From Isoetes taiwanensis (Eukaryota > Streptophyta > Lycopodiopsida > Isoetales > Isoetaceae), in assembly GCA_021234155.1 (NCBI GenBank), contig JAJEKV010000005.1, positions 11,464,572 to 11,528,571 of the forward strand: a DNA stretch of 64,000 bases, given 5' to 3'. Numbering within the stretch: position 1 is the first letter of the stretch; each line of letters opens with the position of its first letter. The notes under the pieces are model-generated. The model was not told where the DNA came from. It saw only the letters and a list, made by a program, of their open reading frames with translations, and searched no databases. Shown in pieces: positions 11,434 through 25,890 of this stretch. The position numbers and the translations under genes were made by a program.

Positions 11434-11469
11434 ACCCCTTGCGGCGGTCAAGACACTACAAGAGAATAG

Positions 11470-12200
11470 GCGTTTATTGTCAGTTTTTTTGTCACTTTGT
11501 AGACTACTGCATTTTTCAGAGAACTGACAAAAATGTGACCATAAAAATGACAAAAATTGGTGACGATAGATCGTCAGTTTTTTGCCATTTTTTTTTGGCA
11601 ATTTTTTGACACATCATTTGTCATCTTTATAGCATTTTTTTGTCACTTTTTTGGGCATTTCTTTGACATCTATATTGTCATATTTTAGGCAAATTTTTGA
11701 CACCCTATTTGTCATCTTTGTAGCATTTTTTTGTCACTTCTTTGGGCAATTCTTTGACATCTATATTGTCATATCTTAGGTTGTTTTTTGACAATTTAGT
11801 GTCATCTAGAGTGTCATATTTTATATCTATTTTTGTCACTTTTTTGGCAATTCTTTGGCACCTACTGTGTCAATTTCATATGAGTTTTTGTCACTTTTTT
11901 GGCAAGTCTTTGGCACCTATTTTGTCACATTTTAAGTTGTCTTGGCACCTTTTTGACACCTATTTTAACATCTTTTAGGCCATGTTTGTCACTTTTTTGG
12001 CAATGTTTTGACATATATTTGGCCATATTCTAATTTATTTTTAGCATATTTTTGTCATCTATAAACATATTTGGGTAATTTTTTGTCATTTTTTCTAGCA
12101 AATCTTAGTCACATTTTTGACATATTTTAATTCATTTTTTTGACACATTATTATCGTCTATTTGGCACATGTGTTGTTTTCTTTTTTGACATTTTTTTAG
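11470..12200. repeat. Left subterminal repeat array of CACTA element 2
   Basis: Dozens of irregular copies of TTTTTGTCACTTTTTTGGCA and TTTTTGACA-type words occur, with TTGTCA/TGACA as the shared core. The same core recurs in inverted arrangement at the right end. By analogy with Spm/En, these are candidate binding sites for the accessory protein; the binding role is inferred. Confidence 0.88.
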
Positions 12201-12425
12201 CATTTTGTCTGAGAAGAATACTGAACATGAATTCTTTATGAAAGATAGAAGCAATACACATAGAAGCATAGTTCATAATGTCTCAAATGAACGATACACA
12301 TAGAAACATAGTTCATAATGTCTCATAGAAACGTAGAAGGAATAGTTCATAATGTCTGGAAAGAACAATACACATGAATTGTTTACGAAGAAGTTTATGA
12401 CAAACCAAATAATAAAGATGTTTGA
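12201..12425. repeat. Short repeats downstream of the accessory gene
   Basis: Three copies of AGTTCATAATGTCT (about 12,269, 12,309 and 12,344) alternate with ATACACATAGAA(A/G)CATA words. The stretch lies just past the stop of the minus-strand gene and may be its 3' untranslated region. Confidence 0.6.
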
Positions 12426-13893
12426 TTAAACACTATCAATTTCAACCTCCTCACTGTCAGCACTAGATGTACTATCTTCACTTCCAGTGCCAGTGCTAGA
12501 TCCATCGCTTGAACTTCCACTGCTTGATGATTTAGACATATCCAACTACATAGGAAAAAAAATAAGTTATATGGCTACAATATTAAAAGTTATAAACATG
12601 TACAACAACTTAGATAAAAACCTACATGCACATCGTCTTCATTCTCCTCACATGGTACTTGATCTGCAACAACTTTCCCCTTGATATCTACTGCTGGGAC
12701 CATGCCCTTACCAACATAATCCTGTGCCATGTGCTACAAGATAATTAAATAGAGTTAATGCTAACTAATATCCATGAATGTATATTTAAATTGTGATTCT
12801 TAAAATTGCAATTGTACCTTTGTTTTCGGAAATACACGTCCTTCATCACTCTCCGTTGGAGCCATTTCTTCCATCCTCCAATTTCCTTAATCTCGAAACT
12901 TGACTTTCTGGGAGTGGGATAACCTCCGAAGTAGGCATACTAAAAATTGCAAATCTGAGGAAGTTATAATTTGTATTTATAGCACTTGATTCTAAACAAA
13001 TAAGATATGATACTTACATAATTGGAGATGATTGATCTATCCCCACGGAGACCCATTGCATGGTCTCGTTTTTCTTTGAGATGCCGCCAACTTCTTCATG
13101 GGGTGCTCCACCGCCGCCAAGTCTAGAAATTTTTCGGTTTGCCTTCTTAATGCATCGAAGGTTTGGAAGTCAAACCTTTTCGCGCCTTTCGTCTTAGATA
13201 ATCCCTACCAATATAATCGAAGAAAATTAAAGCTCTAGATAAAAAAAAAAAAAAAGAATTTGGAAGGTCACATGTCTAACCTGTGATGATTCCATCTACG
13301 TCCCAGTTGTTTCAAGACATCCTTCTCATTAAAACCAAAGACCGAATTGATTCTTCAAGTCATTAATCGCGTCTTGCTTCGGGGCGCAACTTAACTTGTC
13401 GCCAGTTTAGATGTATCTCGTGGCAGTGGTCCAACATGTAACTGCTTGCAATGTCCATAAACTCTTTTCCATGAGCATCAGGATGAATCTTTCCACCACT
13501 AGACACACACACCTACAACGTAATATAAAAAACATTATATTAATCAACGAGATAGGAACAAACACTCAAAACAATTAAAATTGATGTACAATATACCTCA
13601 GTGTCCCCCAACTTCTTAAAGCTCATAGCACGAGAGTTTCCCGATGCCATCGATTCACTACCTTCTACACGTGCATTCTCTTGTGCCTTGGAAGTACCAC
13701 TACCAACGGAAGACCTTCTCCTTCTCTTGGATTTCTTCGATGATGATGCGCCTCCATTTGATAGTTTACGTGCCACTGCATCCTTTTGTTCCTCTGTCAA
13801 CATTGACAAGATTTTTGATAACATCTTAGCTGAAACAACACCTTTCTCCTTCCCCTTTCCATTGTCCTTTCCATTAACCATTTTTAACTGCAT
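12426..13893 (-). CDS. CACTA accessory protein (Transposase_24/TNPA-like), multi-exon, frame partly broken
   Basis: Exon 1 (13,893 or the ATG at 13,881, down to 13,597) encodes a Lys/Gly-rich start, KMLSKILSMLTEEQKDAVAR, a basic patch KKSKRRRR and FKKLGDTE. It ends at a GAG|GTATAT donor. Exon 2 starts after TAG at 13,512 and continues in phase: SSGGKIHPDAHGKEF, then SSYMLDHCHEIHLNWRQVKL, then frame-shifted KNQFG..NEKDVLKQLGRRW. Another segment near 13,040-13,200 reads RFDFQTFDALRRQTEKFLDL. The last exon (12,545-12,426) gives a Ser-rich acidic tail, SADSEEVEIDSV. The mix of a basic N-terminus, a W-containing middle and an acidic tail suits the second protein of plant CACTA elements, which binds subterminal repeats. 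Two in-frame stops after RRD and later frame changes suggest damage or consensus errors. Family assignment is moderate. Confidence 0.5.
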
Positions 13894-14538
13894 ATAAACG
13901 ACTTACAAGTAAACAAGATATCTCGATGCACATTACCCAACAGAAAATAAAGAACTAAAACACTATTGGAAAAGGTTACTAGTTAACATAGACAACTTTA
14001 ATAAGTAAAATTATAAGTAAAGCAATTTCAACAAAAAGTTTTTCAAAGTACAATATAATAAAAGAAAATTATAACCGACCTTGATAGAGCTTGTTTAGGC
14101 AATGAAAAGGATGGAGGGGCCTTAAAGGTCTGCAACATAAACATAGTACCAGTCAACAACACAACATATTTCCACAGTTGTAAGCAAATGGCACCCATTG
14201 CATCAAAATGAATTAAGTTATTCGCCATAACATGGGAAAGTCAAGGACGTGATAAGATAACTAAAGCTGAAAGGTCAACAAATAAAAAATGGGCGGCAGT
14301 GCCCCGTTACAATATCATGCATTAATCCAAAAATCCTGCTGCACAGCTCCTTTTATTTTCCAAAAACTTGTTTATAAGTTAATAACTCGCTATACAATTG
14401 TAATTTTCGCCTTTAAAAAAGCAACTGAACTACTTCTACAATCAACAGAAAAGGCGATCTGTCATTTTAAGACATCCTATACACAAAACTTATTCCAAAG
14501 AATTTTCCGTGAGAATATGCACAAAACTTTCTGCGGTC
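13894..14538. other. Intergenic stretch inside CACTA element 2
   Basis: No gene recognised. The stretch is AT-rich. It may hold part of the upstream region of the minus-strand accessory gene. Confidence 0.35.
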
Positions 14539-14985
14539 TCATATGCCCTCATGCTTTTCCAAGCAATCTTTATACGCATTTCTCAAGAACTTAAGCAAAT
14601 CCCCAGCCTTTTGCTTGGTTCTTGGATTGTATCCAATTTGCAAGAAGAAGAAGAGTTTGGCAAATATGCCTGCTTCTATCATTCTCTTCTTGATACCATC
14701 ATCTGGTGAATACTTGCATAGAGCCCATAATGTCCCAATCGCATACTCTGTTGCAGTGTCAGAAACCTTGAACAATCGAGCATGATCACACACTGCTGCT
14801 CTGCCTTCAGCGCATCCACAAATGCATTCTAGCAAAGCAACAAGGGAGATTCTTGGAATGGGGCCAGAGGTTCTTGAGTCAGAGGTTCTTGGAATGGGAG
14901 TTTTTTGTGATGTTTCAAAACTCTGGCCAATTCTACCCCCATTGCAGAATCTACCAAGGATTTGAAGAGGCTTCTCATAAATCAT
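14539..14985 (-). pseudogene. Captured fragment of a plant U-box (PUB) E3 ligase, C-terminal ARM-repeat part
   Basis: The minus-strand frame contains LLECICGCAEGRAAVCDHA, then ATEYAIGTLWALCKYSPDDG, then KQKAGDLLKFLRNAYKDC, and stops at 14,539. This is the typical C-terminus of plant U-box/ARM-repeat ubiquitin ligases (PUB22/23/24-type), where CAEGRAAV, LW.LC.YSPDDG and K.KA.DLLKFL are conserved. The U-box and most ARM repeats are absent. Compared with the family, a short segment after the DHA residues is missing, and an internal duplication (about 14,850-14,895, CAAGAACCTCTG-type words) replaces normal sequence. It lies wholly within the borders of CACTA element 2, so the simplest reading is host gene capture followed by decay. 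Homology is recognised from motifs; capture is inference. Confidence 0.75.
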
Positions 14986-16720
14986 GTGGCTGCTTTCGGA
15001 GCGCCTCTGGGGAAAGCAACACTGCTACGAAGAGCTCACGGATCAGCATGCAATCGATTGAAGAGTTTGCTCATGAAATCAGGATGCGAGATGTGGGTTT
15101 TGGGACTCCGATGCAAAGAGCAGTGTGACCAATTGGTCCGAAGACCGAGGTACTGGTTTAAGAGGGCACAACAGGAGCGCAAGAATTCTTAGATCGAGCC
15201 CTTCTGGTCATGGTAACCTGTTGAAAAACCTTATTCGAAAGAATCCTGTCTGGTAAATTGCAGTATGCAAATTGAGCTATTCAGGCAGGCTAAGCCTTTG
15301 CTGCCGACCTATAAAATGACGAAGCCGAAACTATAAGGTGAATAGATTCTTCAGCGGACTACACAACACAGATTATCGGAGAAATAGAAAAGGCCCCTGA
15401 ATGTCCTGCTACTGCAGACACTAAAACTTTAAATAAAGGACCAAAGAAGAATGGAACATTGCTACGAATCTGGACAGTCAAAGCATGCTTTCAGCCTGTA
15501 CCACAAAATGCAGGATTTTGCCCATTTTTTCTGCAAAAATGAGTTAGAATCTGGCCATGAATTAGAAGACTTACCGTGTTTTAAACAGATGGAACAAGAA
15601 GTTCGTCCTGATGCGTCCTGCTGCGTCCTGATGCAGGTACAAGAAGATTGTATTGCCCGGTTGGCTGCACCGTTGTAGAAAAAAATTGCCAAAAAAGGAA
15701 ACCAAATGCCGTTTGACACCTACCTCTTCTGCCGAAAACAATTCTTCTTTGCCAACAAGGCTTCATTCCGGAGGCGGGAGGCGGCATTCCTTTCCCTTGT
15801 TTCTTTCTCAGGTGAGTGAGCCAGGTGCTAAAGATTTTTTTTTCTTGATTTTTGTTGTTAGGTGGCGTTGTTTGAGTTATTTAGGCGGGAACAAAAAGAG
15901 TCAAATTCATGTATATTTTGACAAAAATGTGACGAAAATATAGTCACATATTTTTGTCACAAGACCATTACACCTTTGTAAAGTGGTTTTTGTAGGAAAT
16001 AAAAATACATCCACTATAATTTAGTTCTAACTAGCATGCATGTACACATTAGATTAAACAACATCATAATACATACTTGAAAGGCAAGTTGGGCCAACAT
16101 GGGATGTTAAATCTTATTTCAAAGGTCCTCCGTTCCGAAACTCATTGCTTGGGGTTATTATCAATGGGTCAAAGCTAATCAATCCATATACCCGGTTGTC
16201 CGTACTGTCGCATGAGTATTGATATTTATCATCCACCTAAACATGTGCTTATATCAGACACTTGATGTGTATCATAACGTGGTTAGAAAATACCATATGC
16301 AAGGAAACCAGAACATCCCATGGTTGATAATTTATCGTTGAAGACACATCTTGTTTGTCTATCCTTTCTATATGATAAATTTTTCAAACTCTCATTCCAA
16401 ATACAGTCTAAGTTTAGCAAATATTATATTTTAGGCACTTGGTTGTGTACGGCCTAGTCTTGTATTTTAAATTGACTATACTATTAGGATTGGCATCCAA
16501 TGTTTGGATGCATTCATTTTAGGCAGGTGTGGGAGAACTAAAACTCATCTAATTGTGAGGAAGGTTTTGTCACACATTCTTGTCATAAACTTGTAATTGA
16601 AGTTTCTACTACATAAATTTCTCTGTTTTTTTTTCCTAGGACATTGTTATCAATCTTAAAAATTGTTATTAGCACATGCAGTTATGCTTAAGGGGATGCT
16701 ATTGCTAACTTCTTTAATTT
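14986..16720. other. Non-coding centre of CACTA element 2
   Basis: No additional gene recognised; the frames at 14,853-15,192 and 15,451-15,943 look fortuitous. Some sequence just upstream of 14,985 on the minus strand may belong to the same captured U-box gene, but no motif confirms it. A palindromic pair of subterminal-type motifs lies at 15,919-15,959. Divergent promoters for the minus-strand and plus-strand genes should lie in or around this interval. Confidence 0.4.
15919..15959. promoter_or_regulatory. Inverted pair of subterminal-type TGACA motifs inside CACTA element 2
   Basis: TGACAAAAATGTGAC at 15,919 faces GTCACATATTTTTGTCA ending at 15,959. The arms are reverse complements apart from two extra bases in the second. 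They use the same TGACA/TTGTCA word as the element's termini but lie near its middle. A regulatory site bound by the accessory protein is possible, as is a leftover end of a nested element. Confidence 0.45.
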
Positions 16721-18149
16721 ATGAAGATGGCTTCTTCCTCAAGTGGAAAGACAAGCACTGCATCATCAAGCGAGTCAAGTGAGCGAAGTGCAGGGCCCTC
16801 AAGAAAAAATAGGATACGTCGTACTCGTCGAAAACAACGGTTAATTTAATTTTGTAATATTCTTATTTCCAGTACAACTACACCTTTTACAATTGCAATA
16901 TTGGTTAAATGCAGGATGGACTCTTCTTCTTCACATTCTAGTAGAGGTGCACGATCAGATAATGCAAGAGTCGATCCCATCCAAAGTCTATATCAATCTA
17001 AATGGCCTTGTTGGTGCTTGAAGTGTCGTGGTGCGAGAAAACTAGAGTACAGTGTCAGGGAAGATCATAAAATAAGCTTTGGATGGTGTGCAGATGCACC
17101 TCCTCCTGATTATTCTGAAAGACGAATGCGTCGAAAGGCCGATGAGGTACGTCTATAAAGTTTTTCTCTATCTTTGATTTTGGCAACATTAGAATTTGGA
17201 TAATCTTGCCAATCTTGCAGTATATAAGGGGCTTGCAACATAACTCACCAATTGCACCCGAGGATCAAATTGGATTTCCATCCACGTCCTCATCTACACC
17301 ACCTAGAATTCGGCTTCGTAGATGTCGTGAACAAGGTTCAAGTACCTCTTTCAGTGATGCAAAAGAAAAGGTAGTAGACACTAAACAAGTAAGAGGACGT
17401 ACAAGGGGGGAGTCTGCAACACTTTCAATTAAGGCCTAGTTTGGCACATATTCTCTTTCACATGTTAATGAGACTGATGGGGATTACCATACTTATATGC
17501 CAGACAGTCTTAAAAATGCAATTGTTCCATTTGATCGTAGGACATTTGGTTGTTGGGAAGGACAACTTCCACCAATGTTGGAGGAGTTCATCTATTGGGG
17601 ACGTCGATATATGATTGCACCATCTAGAAATATTCCTGAGGCAGGAAGAAGCTTATATATCTTAGAAAGTGTATGTGGTAGTCTTGAAAATCCAACAACT
17701 CTGATGGCATATGGAGGACCCACATATAGTTGGGGTGTTTGGATAAGATTGGCATCATTCATGCCTAGCATGTCTATGGTCTAGTAATGAATTGGTGCAG
17801 ACTGAATAAGCAAAAGGAACATGGAGAAGATGTGTCGATAGCTGACAAGATTTATATCAATGGTCGTCCTAGCGTTCATGGAGATATTGCTGGTCTTATT
17901 AACAGCTCACATGGTCATTTAGAGTTGTCAAATGCTATTTTTTAGGAGACGGATATACATGATTCTAATCATATGGCTGGACATGCTGGATTTTATGTGC
18001 GGGTTTGTGCTATTAAGAATTTGAGACCAGGGGATGAGATATTTATTGACTATAATTTTCGACGACCCATACCAACTCGAAGACGAAGGGAGCTAAACGG
18101 GGGGCCTCTCATTGTTCCATTAGAGAGGCCAAACAAAAAAGCCATGTGA
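16721..18149 (+). CDS. Transposon-borne SET-domain-like protein with zinc-finger-like N-terminus, frame interrupted
   Basis: Exon 1 (16,721-16,839) encodes a Ser-rich then Arg-rich start ending NRIRRTRRKQ. Donor ACG|GTTAAT and acceptor GCAG at 16,914 join in phase to exon 2 (16,915-17,146). Exon 2 holds a candidate zinc-binding motif C72-x-C74-x2-C77...H91 (WPCWCLKC, VREDHKISFG) that recalls the transposase-associated domain of TNP2 proteins. Exon 3 begins at 17,221. Farther on come GRSLYILESV and TLMAYGGPTYSW, then GDIAGLINSS, and then RVCAIKNLRPGDEIFIDYNF. The last is a good match to the C-terminal half of a SET methyltransferase domain (A..[ND][IL]..G[ED]E[IL]..DY). The usual NHSC motif reads NSSH. 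In-frame TAG codons at 17,437, 17,782 and 17,943, plus a frame change near 17,785, interrupt it. TGA is at 18,147. It could be separate from, or fused to, the TNP2 transcript. Confidence 0.6.
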
Positions 18150-18485
18150 AATAAACTTTGTGACTTTAAAAAATTAGATACGATTCTTAAAAATTTTGTT
18201 CTTATTTTCTATTTACGTTAACTAACTACTATTTATTGCATACTACTAATATTTCATTTAATTTGGCAAAAACTACTATTTATTCTGTATTTTGTGATTG
18301 CATAATGTTTTGCTGCTCGAATATTGGTATACCAAGTTTTGTCAGTCTTACCAAATATTGCACTAATGTGGAAATAATTGCAGTTCGATGGAGAGTCCAC
18401 ATCAAGCGGCGAACCAACATCTGCCATGAGGAAGTCTTGGGTAAATTGGTCTAATTGAGACTATTAACAATTATTATGCTGTTAT
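18150..18485. other. Short interval between the SET-like gene and TNP2
   Basis: AT-rich. An acceptor-like TTGCAG at about 18,382 is followed by FDGESTSSGEPTSAMRKSW in one frame and RWRVHIKRRTN in another, so a small exon linking the SET-like gene to TNP2 is possible but unproven. Confidence 0.35.
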
Positions 18486-21400
18486 AGATGGAGAGAATGA
18501 TGATGCCAATCAAGAGGCCAATATTGAAGGTGATAAAGAAGATGCAAGTGTTCTCAAAGATGAGGCAGGCAAACCACTATATCCTGGGGCTAGGATGTCA
18601 CGTCTTGCAACATGCTTGCTAATTCTGAATCTTCAACACAAATTTGCATGGAGTAATAACAGTGTATCAGAGCTACTTAGGTATGTTATTTTTTTGAATG
18701 ATAAATTAGTTTCTTATGAAATCATTTATCATATGCAGCTTGCATCACACTTATTCCTCTTTTCCATGTAGCTTGCTAAGTAAAATACTACCTGCTGGTC
18801 ATTGTCTTCCCAATTCAAGAAGAGAAGCAAGGGAAATCTTGCGTGCATTAGGGTTGGAATATCACTGCATTCATGCTTGCCCAAATGATTGTGTATTGTA
18901 CCGGAATGCATATGCAACATTACATGAGTGCCCAAAATGCAAGGAGCCACGTTATAAGATGGACTAGTAAACGTGTGCCCGGCGTTGCCGGGCTAACGTC
19001 GTTGATTCGAACTGCCCGGCGTGTGCCTGGCGTTGCCGTGCATAAGTAGGTGTGATTATCTAGAGTTTCATGTATTGGGGTTGGTATCCTTTTCACTCAT
19101 GTCAAAGAAGTTGTGGTTGTCTCTCTCAATATAACCTCTCTCTGTATCCGGTTCAAACAAATTATATTCTATAACCTATCGTAATGCTGGTTATAATGCT
19201 ATTCTTGACCTATGGTAGCGACTTATGCTTTGTCTTTTCATATAGGAAAAAATGGAGTAAAATAGAAAATAGCAAATTCTCATGTTTGCATCCAAAGAGT
19301 ATTATCCGTGCTAAGTCTTGTAAACGTTAAATCAAAAGCCCTAAGCCCTATTTGAGATGATGAACCCTAAATCCTAAACTAATGGGTGCAAGGTTTCAAA
19401 GATGTTTGTAGGATGGGCTGATGCCGAGAATCTTGAAATATGTGGAAGTTGGAATTGTTCTCAAGGATGTTGAGAACAATGTCAAAACAATGTCAAGAAG
19501 GAATGTTAAGGAGGGAGGACATGATATACTCCTATACTTGTATAAACATGTCTTACACATTTAAGTAAGAGGGAGGGAGGGAGGAGAGAGGAGCGCTACT
19601 CATAAATCTACACAATTATAAATCTACACAATTGAGAATTTGTTTTCAGATTATTGGCATGAATAAACTCTAGCTCTAAGGATAAATGCTTCAAATTAAG
19701 TCAAATACTTATGTAAGGCAGATTGTTGTGGGAAAGGTGGTTGTCATGGACAACAATTGGTCAATGTGTTTAGTTTTCAATTGTATAGGAGCATACATTA
19801 CTATTTCACCCTACATTTGTTGACTGAGTTCCTTATAGGATTTATTTGAATTTTAACATGCATGTATGGGAAGTGCTTGTGCTCTGAAGTTTAGAGTGAC
19901 TTCTTGTGCTCTGAAGCTTAGAGTGACTTCGTTGGCTCAAGTCCTTGTTGAGGATCTATATAATTAGACACCCATATCGACCTTGAATCTTAAGGGCATG
20001 AGTTGTCGAACCTTGATTATAAAAATTATCACAATCCATTCAACATATGACACGAAGGAAATCATTCAACTGATTTTACAATGAAGAGCACTTTTGAAGA
20101 ATTTAAAGATACTAAATTCAGTTTAACTATTGTTAGTGCATGCTCTTGCATGGCCAAATAAGTGAACAATTCATTTTCTTGGTAAATTGTCTATGGCATG
20201 CGCCCAATGTCAATGATAAGAAGAAACATAAGGTTATGGCTAGCCAAATAATGCTCATGTGAGCTCAGAGAATGAAAGGGGTTGTGCTCCAACGGGTGAG
20301 CAAGAGGGTTGTGCTCAAAGCGGATGCAATATGGGAGGCCGATATATGGTGTGTATCAAGATGGGCTTCGGGATTTACACCAATGCGTTGCTCGCTTCAA
20401 TCTCATTATCGACAATATATTATTGATTGTGGATCGAAAACTGCTCGGAATGTTCATCTACGCCACGATCTCACATATGACACATTTGCAACATTATCAA
20501 AGCTTGGCGATTCCTCAAGATCCACGGCTCGAATCTAAACTATTGCAGAATATTGTCATCCTTATTTGTTGTGACCACATACATCTATCTCTCCAATGGC
20601 ATTATCTCCTTGAGAAAATTGCAAATTTGGTCGTACCTTCTTTGTGTAGGGAAGAAAGGTCAAATCCTCCCCAGTAAGGAAAACAGATGCATTCCGTTTT
20701 AAGCGCAATGTAAAGGGGTCAATAATAGTCATCTTATGTTAACATATGCTAAATGATATATAAGCTGTTTTGAACAAAAGATAGACATGAAAATAATACC
20801 AAAATAAAAATGCATCTTTACGTGCGAACGAAAATGAAAACAACTGGGAGGCGTAAACTATTTGAAGGATCCGGTGAATAAGAAAGCAACCCAAGATCTA
20901 GACCAAAAAGATCTTATCATACTAACAACTTGAATCCAAGTTTCACAAAGCAACAAAATGCCACCAGAAAATGCCTTAGAAAAGAGGGTAAATAAATCTT
21001 ACCTTATATCGCTAGCTCAAAAGATCCGCTCCAAACCAACTGGCTGAAACTTTTATCGGCAGATCTAGTCTTGATCTCTTTCCATCACTGCCAGAACTTC
21101 AGAATATACCATGCGACTTAAAGTAACAACATAGTTTGAGAGTAGATCAAACTATAAATTAAAGCTTCCAAAACAAAGTTCAAAATGCACACATAACCTC
21201 TTTTTAACTCTGCGGCCGGGAATGACTCCTAGACAATACCTCTTTTAAATTAGGTGTTGGTCGCACACGAAGAAGAACGGCTATTGATAGCCCATTGATG
21301 TTTGAGAAAAAGGAGGGCGTTGCTAGCATGCAAGATCGCTTTTTGAATGCGAGCGAGGAAGGTGCCATAAGCGGCATGCAATACATGGGTTCAACATTTC

Positions 21401-24400
21401 GAATCCAAACAAATGTATTAGATGACATTGATATCTTACTCGTGCTCAGTGTCAACAGGAACTTGGAACCTGCAAAGAGAACCTGGCGAGTAAGAGTTTT
21501 TGATATTCATCTTCTTATTGAAGCCCATAAGGCCTAGGCGCATTAAAAGAGCAAGTAAATAACCTCTTGCACCAAAAACAAAGCGATTTGGATCTCAAAC
21601 CTAAGATAAAACTTACCTTGAATGGGCGGAGGATAGAAGCTAGAAACGGGGACATTCACCTTGCCCTATGCCATCACCAGAGTTTCTCCTACAATTGCCA
21701 TATTTCTTGCTCAAAAAAAGAAGGCAAACATTGGGCGTAAACAGGAGGAGGAAGGAGGAAAACCGCACTTTAGAAAACCTTGGATCGCCGAAGATTTAAG
21801 ATGCAACGGGCGGGGCAAGAATCATGAAGATTTTATATTTGGATGATGCTTACTCGTTAAAGAAACAAAACATGACATGGCTATCTCTTTGAAGAGTCCT
21901 ATAAACCGAAATCAGATCAGAGAAAGCTCGGATGCTTCACAAATTCTGCAAGCACAATTACTCCATAAATTTACCTAATGCAGTAGCAAAGCTTTAGGTG
22001 GGAAAACCATCTCAAATCGACAGCTCCTTCTTTACCATTCCAATTTGTGCCTCATGCTCCGGACCTCTACCTTGAAACATGCCGAATAGAAATGCCGCTA
22101 ATCGTAATGTAACGAAAATGTAACGCTTCTTTAAGAAAACGATTTTTGAATCAACTTCTCCACATCTTTATGCAAGCTGTCTCCGTGAAGCCAAAATCAT
22201 TGCGGTGAAGAGGACTTAAGAAACGCTTTGCATGAAAAAACGTTTTAGGGTTAGGCCAATATAAAACACTTTTAAGCTTACGCTCCCAAAAATAATTCCG
22301 GTGCCAAAATCACGCTTTTGGCCGGAAAAAGGAGTGTTACCGGCGACCGGAAAAAGGGAGACACCCCACCCCAAAAACATTTTAAATAAGTAGATATGAA
22401 GAAGAAAAATGTTCCGAGAAAAGTTTTGCGACATCTACCCATTATTCCCCGTTTGCAATACATGTTCCGTTCTCCATCTTTGTCAGCATTAATGGATTTT
22501 CATGTGACACATCGAAGTAATGATGGAATTTTAAGAATCCCAGCGGATGGAGAAGCTATGAAACATATAGAAGATAAGTGGCAGGTATTTAAGGATGAAC
22601 CACGCAATTTACGTCTTGCTATTGGAATGGATGGGATTTGTCCATTTGGAACATTGTCATCAAAATATAGCGTGTGGCCTATAGTTGTGATCAACTACAA
22701 CATTCCACCATGGATGGCAACTAAAGCTGGACATTTGATGTTGGCACTACTTGTTCCAGGTTTGTGCATTATTAAATTTCAATATCTCATTTTCGAAAAT
22801 CTTTTATAATATATATTATTACCAGGGAAGCATCAAGTAAAGAACATGGATGTGTACATGGAGCCACTCATAGAAGAGTTAGAGATGTTATGGAAAGGCA
22901 TCCAAATGTATGACATTGTAAGGACGCCACATCAGTTCACTTTACATGCGATATGTTGCTTTACGACACACGATTATCCTGGTTTTGGTGTTGCTTCTGG
23001 TATGTATATGCTAAAATACCGATGCTCTGCAAAATTTCTAACCCATTATCTAATTATAGGCTTGCAAACAAGTGGAATGAATGGTTGCCCATCATGTGGA
23101 ACTTCTTTGAGTTGCTACCGCTCCAAACACCTTAACAAGCAAATATATCGTGGACACAAAAAGTACCTACCATCTAGCCATCCTATGCGAGGAGCAAATT
23201 CTATTGAGAAACCAATCATTATGACACCCAAGGATTGGTTAGAAATATGGAATATGGCTCGTGAGTCACAAGGTGCATTGAATGATGATGAGGTCATACC
23301 ACCACCAGGCATGAAACGTTTATCAATTTTTCACCGCCTTGAGTATTGGAAAGAATTAAAACTTGTGCATCTACTAGATCCCATGCATATCTTCAAGAAT
23401 GTTGGGCAATCACTCTGGAAGCATTTGTGGGGGATTGGGAGAAGTTAAGTGTCGAAGGATTTCTGAGATTGTAATATAATCGTACTTTGTGGCCTATTGA
23501 AGAGGAGGGCAAAGCCATTAGGTTGCCCTGTGCACCTTGGGTTCTAAGCAAAATCTGAGAAGTTACAAGTAACCAATGTTCTATCCAAAATGCGCACCCC
23601 CACTGGCTATAGCGCTTCACTCCGTAAAGCCTTCACAAAAGATGGTGATCTAAGCGGGTTGAAGTCCCATGATTGGCATAAATTCATACAGGTATTGATT
23701 CTATATTAAATATCTTATGGCATATTTTTTTAATTATGTGTGTTTGCTGCATTCTAGCACATTCTTCCATGTGCAATTGAGAATTGTCTTACAAGTAACA
23801 TTAATTGCTATTATATATCGACTTGGAAAGTTTGCAAGGTATGACACAAAACGCTTTTTAGTGGTATATTTTCAATTATGTTGTTAACAAATAGCAAGTT
23901 TGTATGTAGATGGGTGTCAATGAAAGAGATTAGCTTAGACGATATTTCAACAATGGAGGTTGAGATAGCTGAACTACTGTGCATGATGGAGCGAGAGCTC
24001 CCTACAAGTTTCTTTGACCTTCAAGTACACTTATTAATTCATCTACCAGAAGAGATTCGACTTGTTGGACCAGCTCCAAGTCGGTGGATGTTCTTTTTAG
24101 AACGGTACATGAAAATTTTGAAAGGTTACGTTCGGCAAATGGCTGGGCTCGAGGGGTTCTATGGTCGAGGGTCATTTGCTTCATGAAACATTGTTCTTTC
24201 TAAATGAAGCCACACTTTCAATACACAAAAAGATGCCCCAAAGGTTTGGAATGACGAGGAGGATAAGGAAGTAGCGTAAGAGGTTCTACAAGGTCATGGA
24301 GTGCTTAGCATAAATTGAATGAGGAAATGTTTGAAGAAATAACTAAGTTTGTATCACGTATCGAAAGTCTTGAAATGTGGAGGGAGAGATACAAATGTGC

Positions 24401-25171
24401 TAGAGAAGAAAAGAGAGGCACGAGAAGAGATTTTGCACATAATAGTATACATCATGGCGAAAACGTATTCTATATCGAGTCTTTGGAAGAATTGTTCGAG
24501 GATATGACTCGTGATTGGTTGCTTGAAGCAATGGAAGATGCACGAGATAAAGGAGAGGATGTTCCAAAGGATGACTTCAACATTGCACTTGGATGTGTTA
24601 AAAAGGTACGTTTTTCTATTTATTGTCAATGTATGTTACATGCATATGATTCATTTTCGTATCCTTCTAAAATGCGTGAGCTCGTTTTCACAATTCAATG
24701 TGGGCTTATGGAAACCATCTTCGGACTATAGAGGTCGACAAAGGTCGCTTGACATATGACTGTGGAATTGCTTCTCAATTTGAACAAAAAAGTCAAGCCA
24801 GTCAACGTGATCGACAACCTATTACCAGTGACCTTAATTATGTTGGGCAAATTACTGATATTATTGATGTTGACTTCCGTTCATTTCATGTAACCATCTT
24901 GAGGGCAAAATGGTTCAAAGTTGTTTATAGAGGTAGAAATCAGACCATGAGATCACATCCTTCAGGTTTCTATCAAATTGATTCAACACAGGTTCTTGGA
25001 GAGATGAATGAACCTTTCGTTTACCCTAAACAAGTTGAACAGGTTTTCTTTTTTGAAAATCCTGTTAACCTAACATGGTGGATTGTAGTCCATGTTGTAC
25101 CCAGGCGCAGACGTCTGATTGATAGTACTACATTAGAGCCTGACAATGATGATGATCAAGAAGATGATTGA
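18486..25171 (+). CDS. TNP2-type CACTA transposase with C-terminal DUF4216-like domain, split by a Helitron and frame-broken
   Basis: Exons in order: (a) 18,486-18,680, acidic start then PLYPGARMSRLATCLLILNL. (b) 18,772-18,963 plus 22,395-22,759, LLSKILPAGHCLPNSRREAR, IHACPNDCVLYR, then after the Helitron RHLPIIPRLQYMF, GMDGICPFG and NYNIPPWMATK. (c) 22,826-23,691, DVYMEPLIEELEMLW, HDYPGFGVASG, CPSCGTSL, LLDPMHIFKNV, LSGLKSHDWHKF. (d) 23,758-23,838. (e) from 23,910, LLCMMERELPTSFFDLQVHL and RWMFFLERYMKILKGYVR. (f) 24,315-24,605. (g) about 24,692-25,171, NYVGQITDII and WWIVVHVVP, the DUF4216-like tail. The order matches plant TNP2 proteins. Introns mostly have GT..AG borders in correct phase. 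Frame breaks near 23,440-23,560 and 24,150 mean no full-length product as read. The enzyme would cut and rejoin the CACTA termini in the nucleus. Confidence 0.88.
18964..22394 (-). mobile_element. Non-autonomous Helitron inserted in the TNP2 exon (3,431 bp, minus orientation)
   Basis: Read on the minus strand, the element begins TCTACTTATTT (5' TC end at 22,394). It ends with the hairpin GCCCGGCAACGCCGGGC, nine bases, and CTAG (3' CTRR end at 18,964), inserted between A and T. These are the defining Helitron marks, and no target duplication is present, as expected. Removing it rejoins host codons as ...RYKM-GAT(D)-MKKKNVPRK..., in frame with TNP2 on both sides, which fixes the borders to the base. 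No Rep/helicase sequence was recognised inside, so it is presumably mobilised in trans. The open frames at 20,272-20,677 and 21,204-21,537 match nothing I know and could be captured fragments. Borders are seen directly; class follows known Helitron structure. Confidence 0.9.
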
Positions 25172-25199
25172 TGATATCTTGACTTCTCGAATAATTTCT

Positions 25200-25870
25200 T
25201 ATGAGCTTCTTTAAAGTTAGTTTATTGGCACTTATTTGTCATCCTATTGTCACTTCAAAATCTATTTATTGTTATTTTATTGTCGGCATATTGACACTTT
25301 GATGTCAACTTATTGTCAATTTATATTCACTTTTTTGTCAACTTTTTCTCTCCCTCTTGTCACATTTGAGGCATTCTATTGGCACACTATTGACACATTT
25401 GTGCCACTTTTTCTCCAACATCTTTGTCAAATTTATGACATTTTATTGTCACACTATGGTCAAATTTATATCATTTCTTTGTCACTGCTTTTGTCATTCT
25501 AAAGTCAGTCTATTGACACATTTTTGGCACATGGTTTTGTCAACACTTTGTCAATCTATTGTCATAGTTGTGTCATCTGTTGCCACATTATAGTCAGACT
25601 TATAGCATTTGTTTGTCATTACTCTTGTCAGTATTAAGTCAATTTATTGTCAAATTTTTGACACATGGTTTTGTCAAAACCATATCATTCTATTGTCACA
25701 TTATAGTCACATTTGCACCATCCTTTTGTCACTTTCTTTTGTCACTGTTGCATCACTCTATTGTCACATTTAGTGTCATTTAGATTTCACTATTTTTGTC
25801 ATTTTTATTGTCACTTTTACATCAGTTTTTGGACATAATATTTTGGTGACAAAAAAAGTGACAATAAATC
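25200..25870. repeat. Right subterminal repeat array of CACTA element 2
   Basis: Dense irregular copies of TATTGTCAC, TTTTTGTCA and TTGTCATTCTA-type words with the same TTGTCA core as the left array. The last 42 bp form the right terminal inverted repeat. Confidence 0.88.
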
Positions 25871-25890
25871 ACTGTTCTCTTGTAGTGAGA

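Follow-up and report, generated by a model that had tools for sequence, protein, structure and literature searches.

DNA transposons that carry SET histone-methyltransferase genes are known from oomycetes, where they comprise HarbingerS and Phytophthora MuDR families (Kojima and Jurka 2014, Repbase Reports, as cited in PMC12730594). In the literature searched, transposons with SET genes, namely these oomycete HarbingerS and MuDR elements, are stated only in the accessible part of PMC12730594. The element described here was found in a 64,000-nucleotide stretch of the genome of Isoetes taiwanensis, the whole of which is referred to as the window. As far as the oomycete elements are characterised in the accessible part of that source, the Isoetes element resembles them in being a DNA transposon with a SET gene of the histone-methyltransferase type. 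It differs from them in superfamily, host and gene structure, since they are Harbinger or MuDR elements, whereas the Isoetes element is a CACTA transposon with a TNP2 transposase (PF02992) from a land plant, whose SET exon appears to lie within the transposase gene. The literature searched, without Repbase and most subscription papers, yielded neither a SET-bearing CACTA element nor any SET-bearing transposon from a land plant. Compared with the known SET transposons, another superfamily and another host group are involved, and the placement of the SET exon inside a transposase gene is unusual.

By general architecture, the element is also close to other plant CACTA elements, such as En/Spm of maize and Tgmt* of soybean. 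In En/Spm of maize, tnpA and tnpD result from alternative splicing, and the tnpD frame is located in the region of intron 1, according to the accessible part of PMC2613891. Both En/Spm and the soybean Tgmt* resemble the Isoetes element in their CACTA ends, in TNP2, in having subterminal repeats and in a gene layout compatible with alternative splicing at an early intron; they differ from it in that no SET domain is mentioned for them in the accessible part of the same article (PMC2613891). The accessible main text of PMC4158355, which deals with 64 CACTA transposases of angiosperms, does not contain the term "SET domain".

In plants, transposons are kept silent mainly through the methylation of DNA and histones, and few countermeasures encoded by the transposons themselves are known. 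Fungal DNA transposons with TET/JBP genes, among them EnSpm elements, are similar to the Isoetes element, with its putative methyltransferase, in that they encode an enzyme for a chromatin or DNA mark, which is thought to aid the escape from silencing, as described in the accessible part of PMC12730594; they differ in that this 5mC dioxygenase has moved between superfamilies, whereas the Isoetes SET domain appears to have been inherited with one transposase lineage. VANC of the Arabidopsis VANDAL elements (MuDR) is comparable in its proposed role only, as a transposon protein that regulates the silencing of its own element (PMC12730594, accessible part). The VANDAL elements belong to a different superfamily from that of the Isoetes element. 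VANC is not known to be a SET protein. A SET domain and a transposase are combined in one gene in SETMAR of primates, a host gene joined with a single mariner copy. The Isoetes SET domain differs from this case by belonging to a multiplying transposon family.

Structure of the CACTA element

The complete CACTA/EnSpm element, including nested insertions, extends from 11454 to 25887 on the plus strand of the window. Its ends read CACTACAAGAGAA(T/C)AG, and terminal inverted repeats are present on both sides, beginning with CACTACAAGAGAATAG at the 5′ end (11454–11479, plus strand) and with CACTACAAGAGAACAG at the 3′ end (25862–25887, minus strand). The 26-base terminal sequence has a single exact occurrence in the window, at the 3′ end of the element, and its first 15 bases match at the 5′ end, at 11454, with one mismatch. 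The trinucleotide AGA flanks the element on both sides and represents a 3-bp target site duplication, read in this one element. The 3′ border is common to the independent copy L001 and could be located because both sequences are alike up to GTAGTG, beyond which the flanks differ. Both subterminal regions, to which no strand is assigned, are rich in TTGTCA, with 14 occurrences in 757 bp on the left (11454–12210) and 22 in 698 bp on the right (25190–25887), i.e., 36 in both ends (1,455 bp) compared with 10 in the intervening 12,979 bp.

The TNP2 transposase was detected on the plus strand by Pfam matches to PF02992 (E-values 3.6e-28 and 5.9e-23; domain pieces in 22522–23022), DUF4218 (PF13960, 23917–24159, 1.9e-23) and DUF4216 (PF13952, 24884–25087, 4.6e-07). 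By its terminal inverted repeats, 3-bp target site duplication, subterminal repeats and TNP2 with DUF4218 and DUF4216, the element is a member of CACTA/EnSpm, and the CACTA borders noted in a first-pass annotation of the window could be confirmed.

A TNP2 exon is interrupted by a nested insertion of 3.4 kb (18964–22394, minus strand), the junctions of which were determined by comparison with L001. It sits between A and T. On the minus strand it starts with TC, ends with CTAG and has a hairpin at its terminus, and by these ends it looks Helitron-like. A region of open frames on the minus strand (12426–13902), for which the Pfam search yielded no credible match, is possibly a second, TNP1-like gene of the CACTA element, a designation that follows from its position only. 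The element also contains a captured fragment from the ARM repeat region of a plant U-box protein (14539–15024, minus strand; PF25598, 1.4e-25). The window is 94% alike to the locus L002 from 14844 onwards, where the cut of L002 starts.

The putative TA-SET gene of the window and the identity of its domains

The region 16721–18149 had been described in the first-pass annotation as a multi-exon gene, in which an Arg-rich start and a CxCxxC...H motif are joined to a good match to the C-terminal half of a SET domain. The exons were recovered, all on the plus strand: the region covers a Ser- and Arg-rich first exon with putative splice sites (16721–16839), a zinc-motif exon (16915–17146) and the SET exon (17221–18149). 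The motif itself had to be reassigned, as it is not part of the SET domain but most probably the transposase-associated (TA) zinc motif, in an exon of its own; it reads CxCxxCxG...H from 17009, and the exon ends with GAG|GT in phase 0. The first exon of the TNP2 core is located downstream (18384–18680, plus strand), with a phase-0 acceptor as read in the relatives L001 and L025.

In the window copy, the SET exon, which ends with its own TGA, is broken by two stops, an in-frame TAG at 17437 and a TAG at 17943, and by the loss of four bases at about 17774. The remaining piece at 17946–18146, which contains RPGDEIFIDYNF in frame, stayed under the cut-off of PF00856 (E 0.011, 16.5 bits) because the copy is broken. 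The SET match noted earlier is borne out by intact relatives, since all nine of the proteins tested reached the Pfam SET cut-off, with E-values from 1.1e-07 to 1.7e-04 and at least 22.4 bits. L001, which is 94% identical to the window in the matched protein stretch, exceeded the cut-off with an E-value of 3.7e-05.

Profile searches for SET, TNP2 and Transpos_assoc had been proposed as a check of the annotation. SET was recognized in intact copies and TNP2 was confirmed by PF02992, DUF4218 and DUF4216, whereas the outcome for Transpos_assoc (PF13963, TA) was divided. Among eight proteins tested, the SET-less L011 was over the cut-off (5e-07), the SET-bearing L013 was just under it (8.4e-06) and L006 gave 0.023; the other five, including all four clade III copies, had no match, and the TA call in clade III is based on the motif, its position and the donor phase only.

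A profile built from 23 SET copies matched 13 PDB sequences, all weakly (E 0.096–0.43): nine KMT2A/B or HRX sequences, two EZH2, one LegAS4 of Legionella and one "Eukaryotic huntingtin interacting protein B", the last two of which are presumably SET proteins. In a profile-profile alignment with hhalign, the SET copies were compared with six SET domains of other Isoetes genes, which gave 92.9% over 61 columns. Searching PDB with the single sequence of L005 yielded eight matches up to an E-value of 5, none of them a SET protein by name. With NCBIfam, nothing was found for three of the four proteins tested; L005 gave two cytochrome-oxidase matches and a weak LegAS4 match (E 0.25). In the viral and prokaryote collections, 53 and 39 stretches, respectively, fitted a pattern, none of which was confirmed as a relative.

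Recurrence of the SET exon in the genome

The genome of I. taiwanensis (1,658,258,908 bases in 1110 contigs) was searched with the first part of the window SET exon, and at least 150 matches were scored among 761 candidates, a few of the 150 being two pieces of one place. For TNP2, the best 150 of 2311 candidates were used. Among the matches listed, at least ten SET-TNP2 pairs within 12 kb were found, four from 112 SET-protein matches and six from 72 Pfam SET matches, each compared with the 150 TNP2 matches. As the matches listed yielded just these ten pairs, a TNP2-led sample of 18 loci was drawn, hand-picked and spaced down the TNP2 list, none of them belonging to the ten pairs.

In this sample, nine of the 18 loci have a SET domain about 1–1.6 kb upstream of TNP2, and no SET was found within about 4 kb in the other nine. 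The same proportion (9/18) was obtained when the search was repeated with a profile from L001 and L005 only, which contains no letters of the window. Among the nine SET-bearing loci, SET is open in one frame in one (L015). In addition, 42 further loci were chosen by their SET matches, mostly stop-free ones; within about 3.2 kb, TNP2 was found in 33 of them, and 37 have the zinc motif. The order and orientation of SET and TNP2 are constant across loci and the distances broadly so.

The central claim of the first-pass annotation, a CACTA element that carries a SET-domain gene beside its transposase, was therefore substantiated, with SET recurrently located upstream of TNP2. The annotation had proposed a search of the same genome for further SET-TNP2 copies, which are thus found in half of the TNP2-led sample and exist next to SET-less ones, and it had named a missing SET match or a one-off insertion as evidence against itself; the SET cut-off was reached and the gene recurs, some copies being without it.

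Selection on SET and agreement of the SET and TNP2 trees

For the estimation of dN/dS, 37 intact copies were used, picked among those open in one frame. The SET medians were 0.36 at dS 0.02–0.1 (41 pairs), 0.22 at 0.1–0.3 (34 pairs), 0.16 at 0.3–0.6 (14 pairs), 0.12 at 0.6–1.0 (18 pairs) and 0.20 at 1.0–1.6 (27 pairs). For 21 pairs shared by both domains, the SET and TNP2 medians in rising dS bins were 0.177 and 0.124 (14 pairs), 0.119 and 0.084 (4 pairs), and 0.107 and 0.125 (3 pairs), the dS values being similar. SET is under purifying selection, with dN/dS values close to those of the accompanying TNP2.

The SET and TNP2 trees of 45 loci are highly correlated (Mantel r 0.95, 0 of 2000 permutations), and three SET-bearing clades recur in both trees with a support of 0.86–1.0. 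Agreement was also observed within clade III (r 0.905, 0 of 5000) and within clade IV (r 0.841, 136 of 5000). Clade I gave an r of -0.02 (2250 of 5000) and therefore contributes no within-clade support. From these comparisons, the SET exon is read as an integral and selected part of an old CACTA lineage, inherited together with the transposase. If the trees, which were built without an outgroup, are rooted on the branch of the SET-less clade II, a single gain of SET would suffice, with losses inside clade IV (L007, L009, L018, L020).

SET-less subfamilies

The clade IV locus L007 aligns with L005 on both flanks but is without the stretch that holds the SET exon. A 301-bp junction probe matched at 41 places, at 17 of which it is unbroken (85–100% identity, L007's own place included), and at the other 24 it matches on one side. 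The SET-less subfamily has thus multiplied, and from the occurrence of the SET-less derivative at 17 places it follows that the SET exon is dispensable in cis for the transposase. It is possible that SET-bearing copies help the SET-less ones in trans. The SET domain, under nearly the same selection as the transposase over deep divergence, and this sister subfamily, which has lost the exon, form a natural pair in which one can directly ask if the putative methyltransferase of a transposon affects how its family is silenced.

The second SET-less group is clade II, which consists of L011, L012, L014, L016 and L024 (support 1.0); of these, only L011 and L012 showed the TA motif.

Two further clade IV loci with TNP2, L018 and L020, are 96% identical to each other and contain neither SET nor the TA motif in the 4 kb upstream. 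They appear to represent another rearranged subfamily.

Exon phases and predicted products

The donor of the TA exon (GAG|GT or CAG|GT) is in phase 0 in 43 of the 53 loci with the motif, including the SET-less L007, L011 and L012. Eight of the remaining ten have the donor but a shifted intervening frame, and none was detected in the other two, L005 and L053. The SET exon starts after a phase-0 AG in ten of the 11 loci examined, the site in L044 being ambiguous. A phase-0 acceptor of the TNP2 exon was found in L001, L005, L007, L025, L044 and L045, with ten of the 20 loci asked being readable, and also in L006, L015, L017, L049 and L057. Because the TA donors and the acceptors of SET and TNP2 are all in phase 0, the SET exon is placed, on the splice sites as read, in a conserved phase-0 intron of a TA-TNP2 gene, between the zinc exon and the catalytic exons.

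The clades differ in the way the SET frame ends. In clade III, to which the window belongs, it runs on through a conserved tail up to a stop, and in clade IV it stops 5–6 codons past SET. No phase-0 AG|GT donor is present before the SET stop in any of 27 clade III loci or of six clade IV loci, and an in-frame fusion of SET to TNP2 was rejected for these two clades only. By contrast, a phase-0 donor (GAG|GTCCTT or a similar sequence) is located shortly before the stops in 15 of 16 clade I loci, and the copies read (L006, L017, L057) have a phase-0 acceptor at the next exon downstream; a TA-SET-TNP2 fusion is possible there, as judged from these sites. The question of a fusion to TNP2, which the first-pass annotation had left open, is accordingly answered clade by clade.

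In L001 and L025, no in-frame ATG precedes residue 73 of the TNP2 exon, which therefore needs an upstream exon. Together, the phase-0 layout, the SET stop without a donor in clades III and IV and the TNP2 exon without an ATG suggest two alternative products, TA-SET and TA-TNP2, from predicted splicing.

Proposed function of TA-SET and alternatives

The observation of a SET exon in this CACTA family is real, recurrent, selected and old, and its anatomy is well supported; the function of the exon, including an enzyme activity and an anti-silencing role, is inferred, and a role like that of VANC is proposed by analogy only. In the best reading as a whole, which is judged to be close to an even call, a trans-acting TA-SET protein from an alternatively used exon would modify the chromatin of the family against silencing. 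Most likely, one transcript would be alternatively processed into two proteins with a common zinc domain, of which TA-SET would end at the SET stop and TA-TNP2 would skip the SET exon; a fusion of all three parts (TA-SET-TNP2) could also be formed in clade I. The zinc domain would bring TA-SET to the DNA of the family, where the protein, acting in trans, would methylate a histone (or another chromatin protein) at the family's copies, and this methylation would keep the element transcribable despite host silencing. More tentatively, this can be put in a stricter form, in which one promoter would yield either a transposase or a DNA-targeted methyltransferase with a common zinc domain, and this writer would keep the whole family, SET-less copies included, active in trans.

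Several conserved residues of SET enzymes are retained, and others are changed. In 23 copies, G66 (first G of GxG), G90 (YxG), N153 (INSS) and Y203 (last Tyr of ELxxxY) are invariant, and Y88 of YxG is conserved to at least 90%. The roles of YxG and of the final Tyr are known from SET enzymes. The second G of GxG falls below 90% conservation and is replaced by S in L001, L015, L025 and L052. In the copies aligned, the NHS of RFINHSC reads INSS, with H replaced by S, and no post-SET cysteine cluster follows the SET domain.

These residues bear on the alternative that TA-SET is a TNPA-like second protein, which would bind the subterminal repeats and aid excision, with the SET fold as an interaction module and catalysis of little weight. 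It would account for the TA zinc motif on the same protein as SET, for the TTGTCA-rich element ends and for the loss of H in NHS, and it has a parallel in En/Spm, which needs TNPA and TNPD and for which these may be supplied in trans, according to the accessible part of PMC2613891. However, the first G of GxG, the Y and G of YxG, the N of INSS and the last Tyr are all invariant or conserved to at least 90%, which would not be required of a mere scaffold, and the TNPA-like gene might rather be represented by the open frames on the minus strand. A TNPA-like TA-SET is considered rather unlikely.

Alternatively, SET could be a domain of the transposase itself, TA-SET-TNP2 being one protein in which it serves, e.g., as a chromatin tether or in site choice. 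The donors of 15 of 16 clade I loci and the acceptors of L006, L017 and L057 agree with this, but the donor is missing in all clade III and clade IV loci read (27 and six), the C-terminal tail and the stop are conserved in clade III, and a subfamily without the SET exon has multiplied, all of which makes a general one-protein structure improbable.

As a further alternative, TA-SET could deposit a repressive mark and thereby limit the activity of the element or steer it to heterochromatin, with the result that its copies would do little damage and persist; the weak PDB matches (KMT2, LegAS4, EZH2) do not assign TA-SET to a SET class, i.e., to a particular lysine. By reasoning, however, self-restraint should select only weakly on a multicopy trans-acting gene, whereas the dN/dS of SET is close to that of TNP2, and little probability is given to this possibility. 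SET enzymes often act on non-histone substrates, and TA-SET might methylate a non-histone target, either the transposase of its element or a silencing protein of the host, which is regarded as a minor possibility at best. Finally, the SET exon might be a fragment of a host gene that was captured passively; transposons often contain such fragments, and the U-box ARM piece in the window element (14539–15024) is an example. This is very improbable and was rejected because the exon has the same place in three TNP2 clades, is under purifying selection and has a tree congruent with that of TNP2.

As a minor feature of clade III, a basic RTRG motif (as in RGRTRG) is found ahead of the SET domain, e.g., in L001, L003 and L038 and, in the window, before 17436. 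It might serve in DNA binding or nuclear import.
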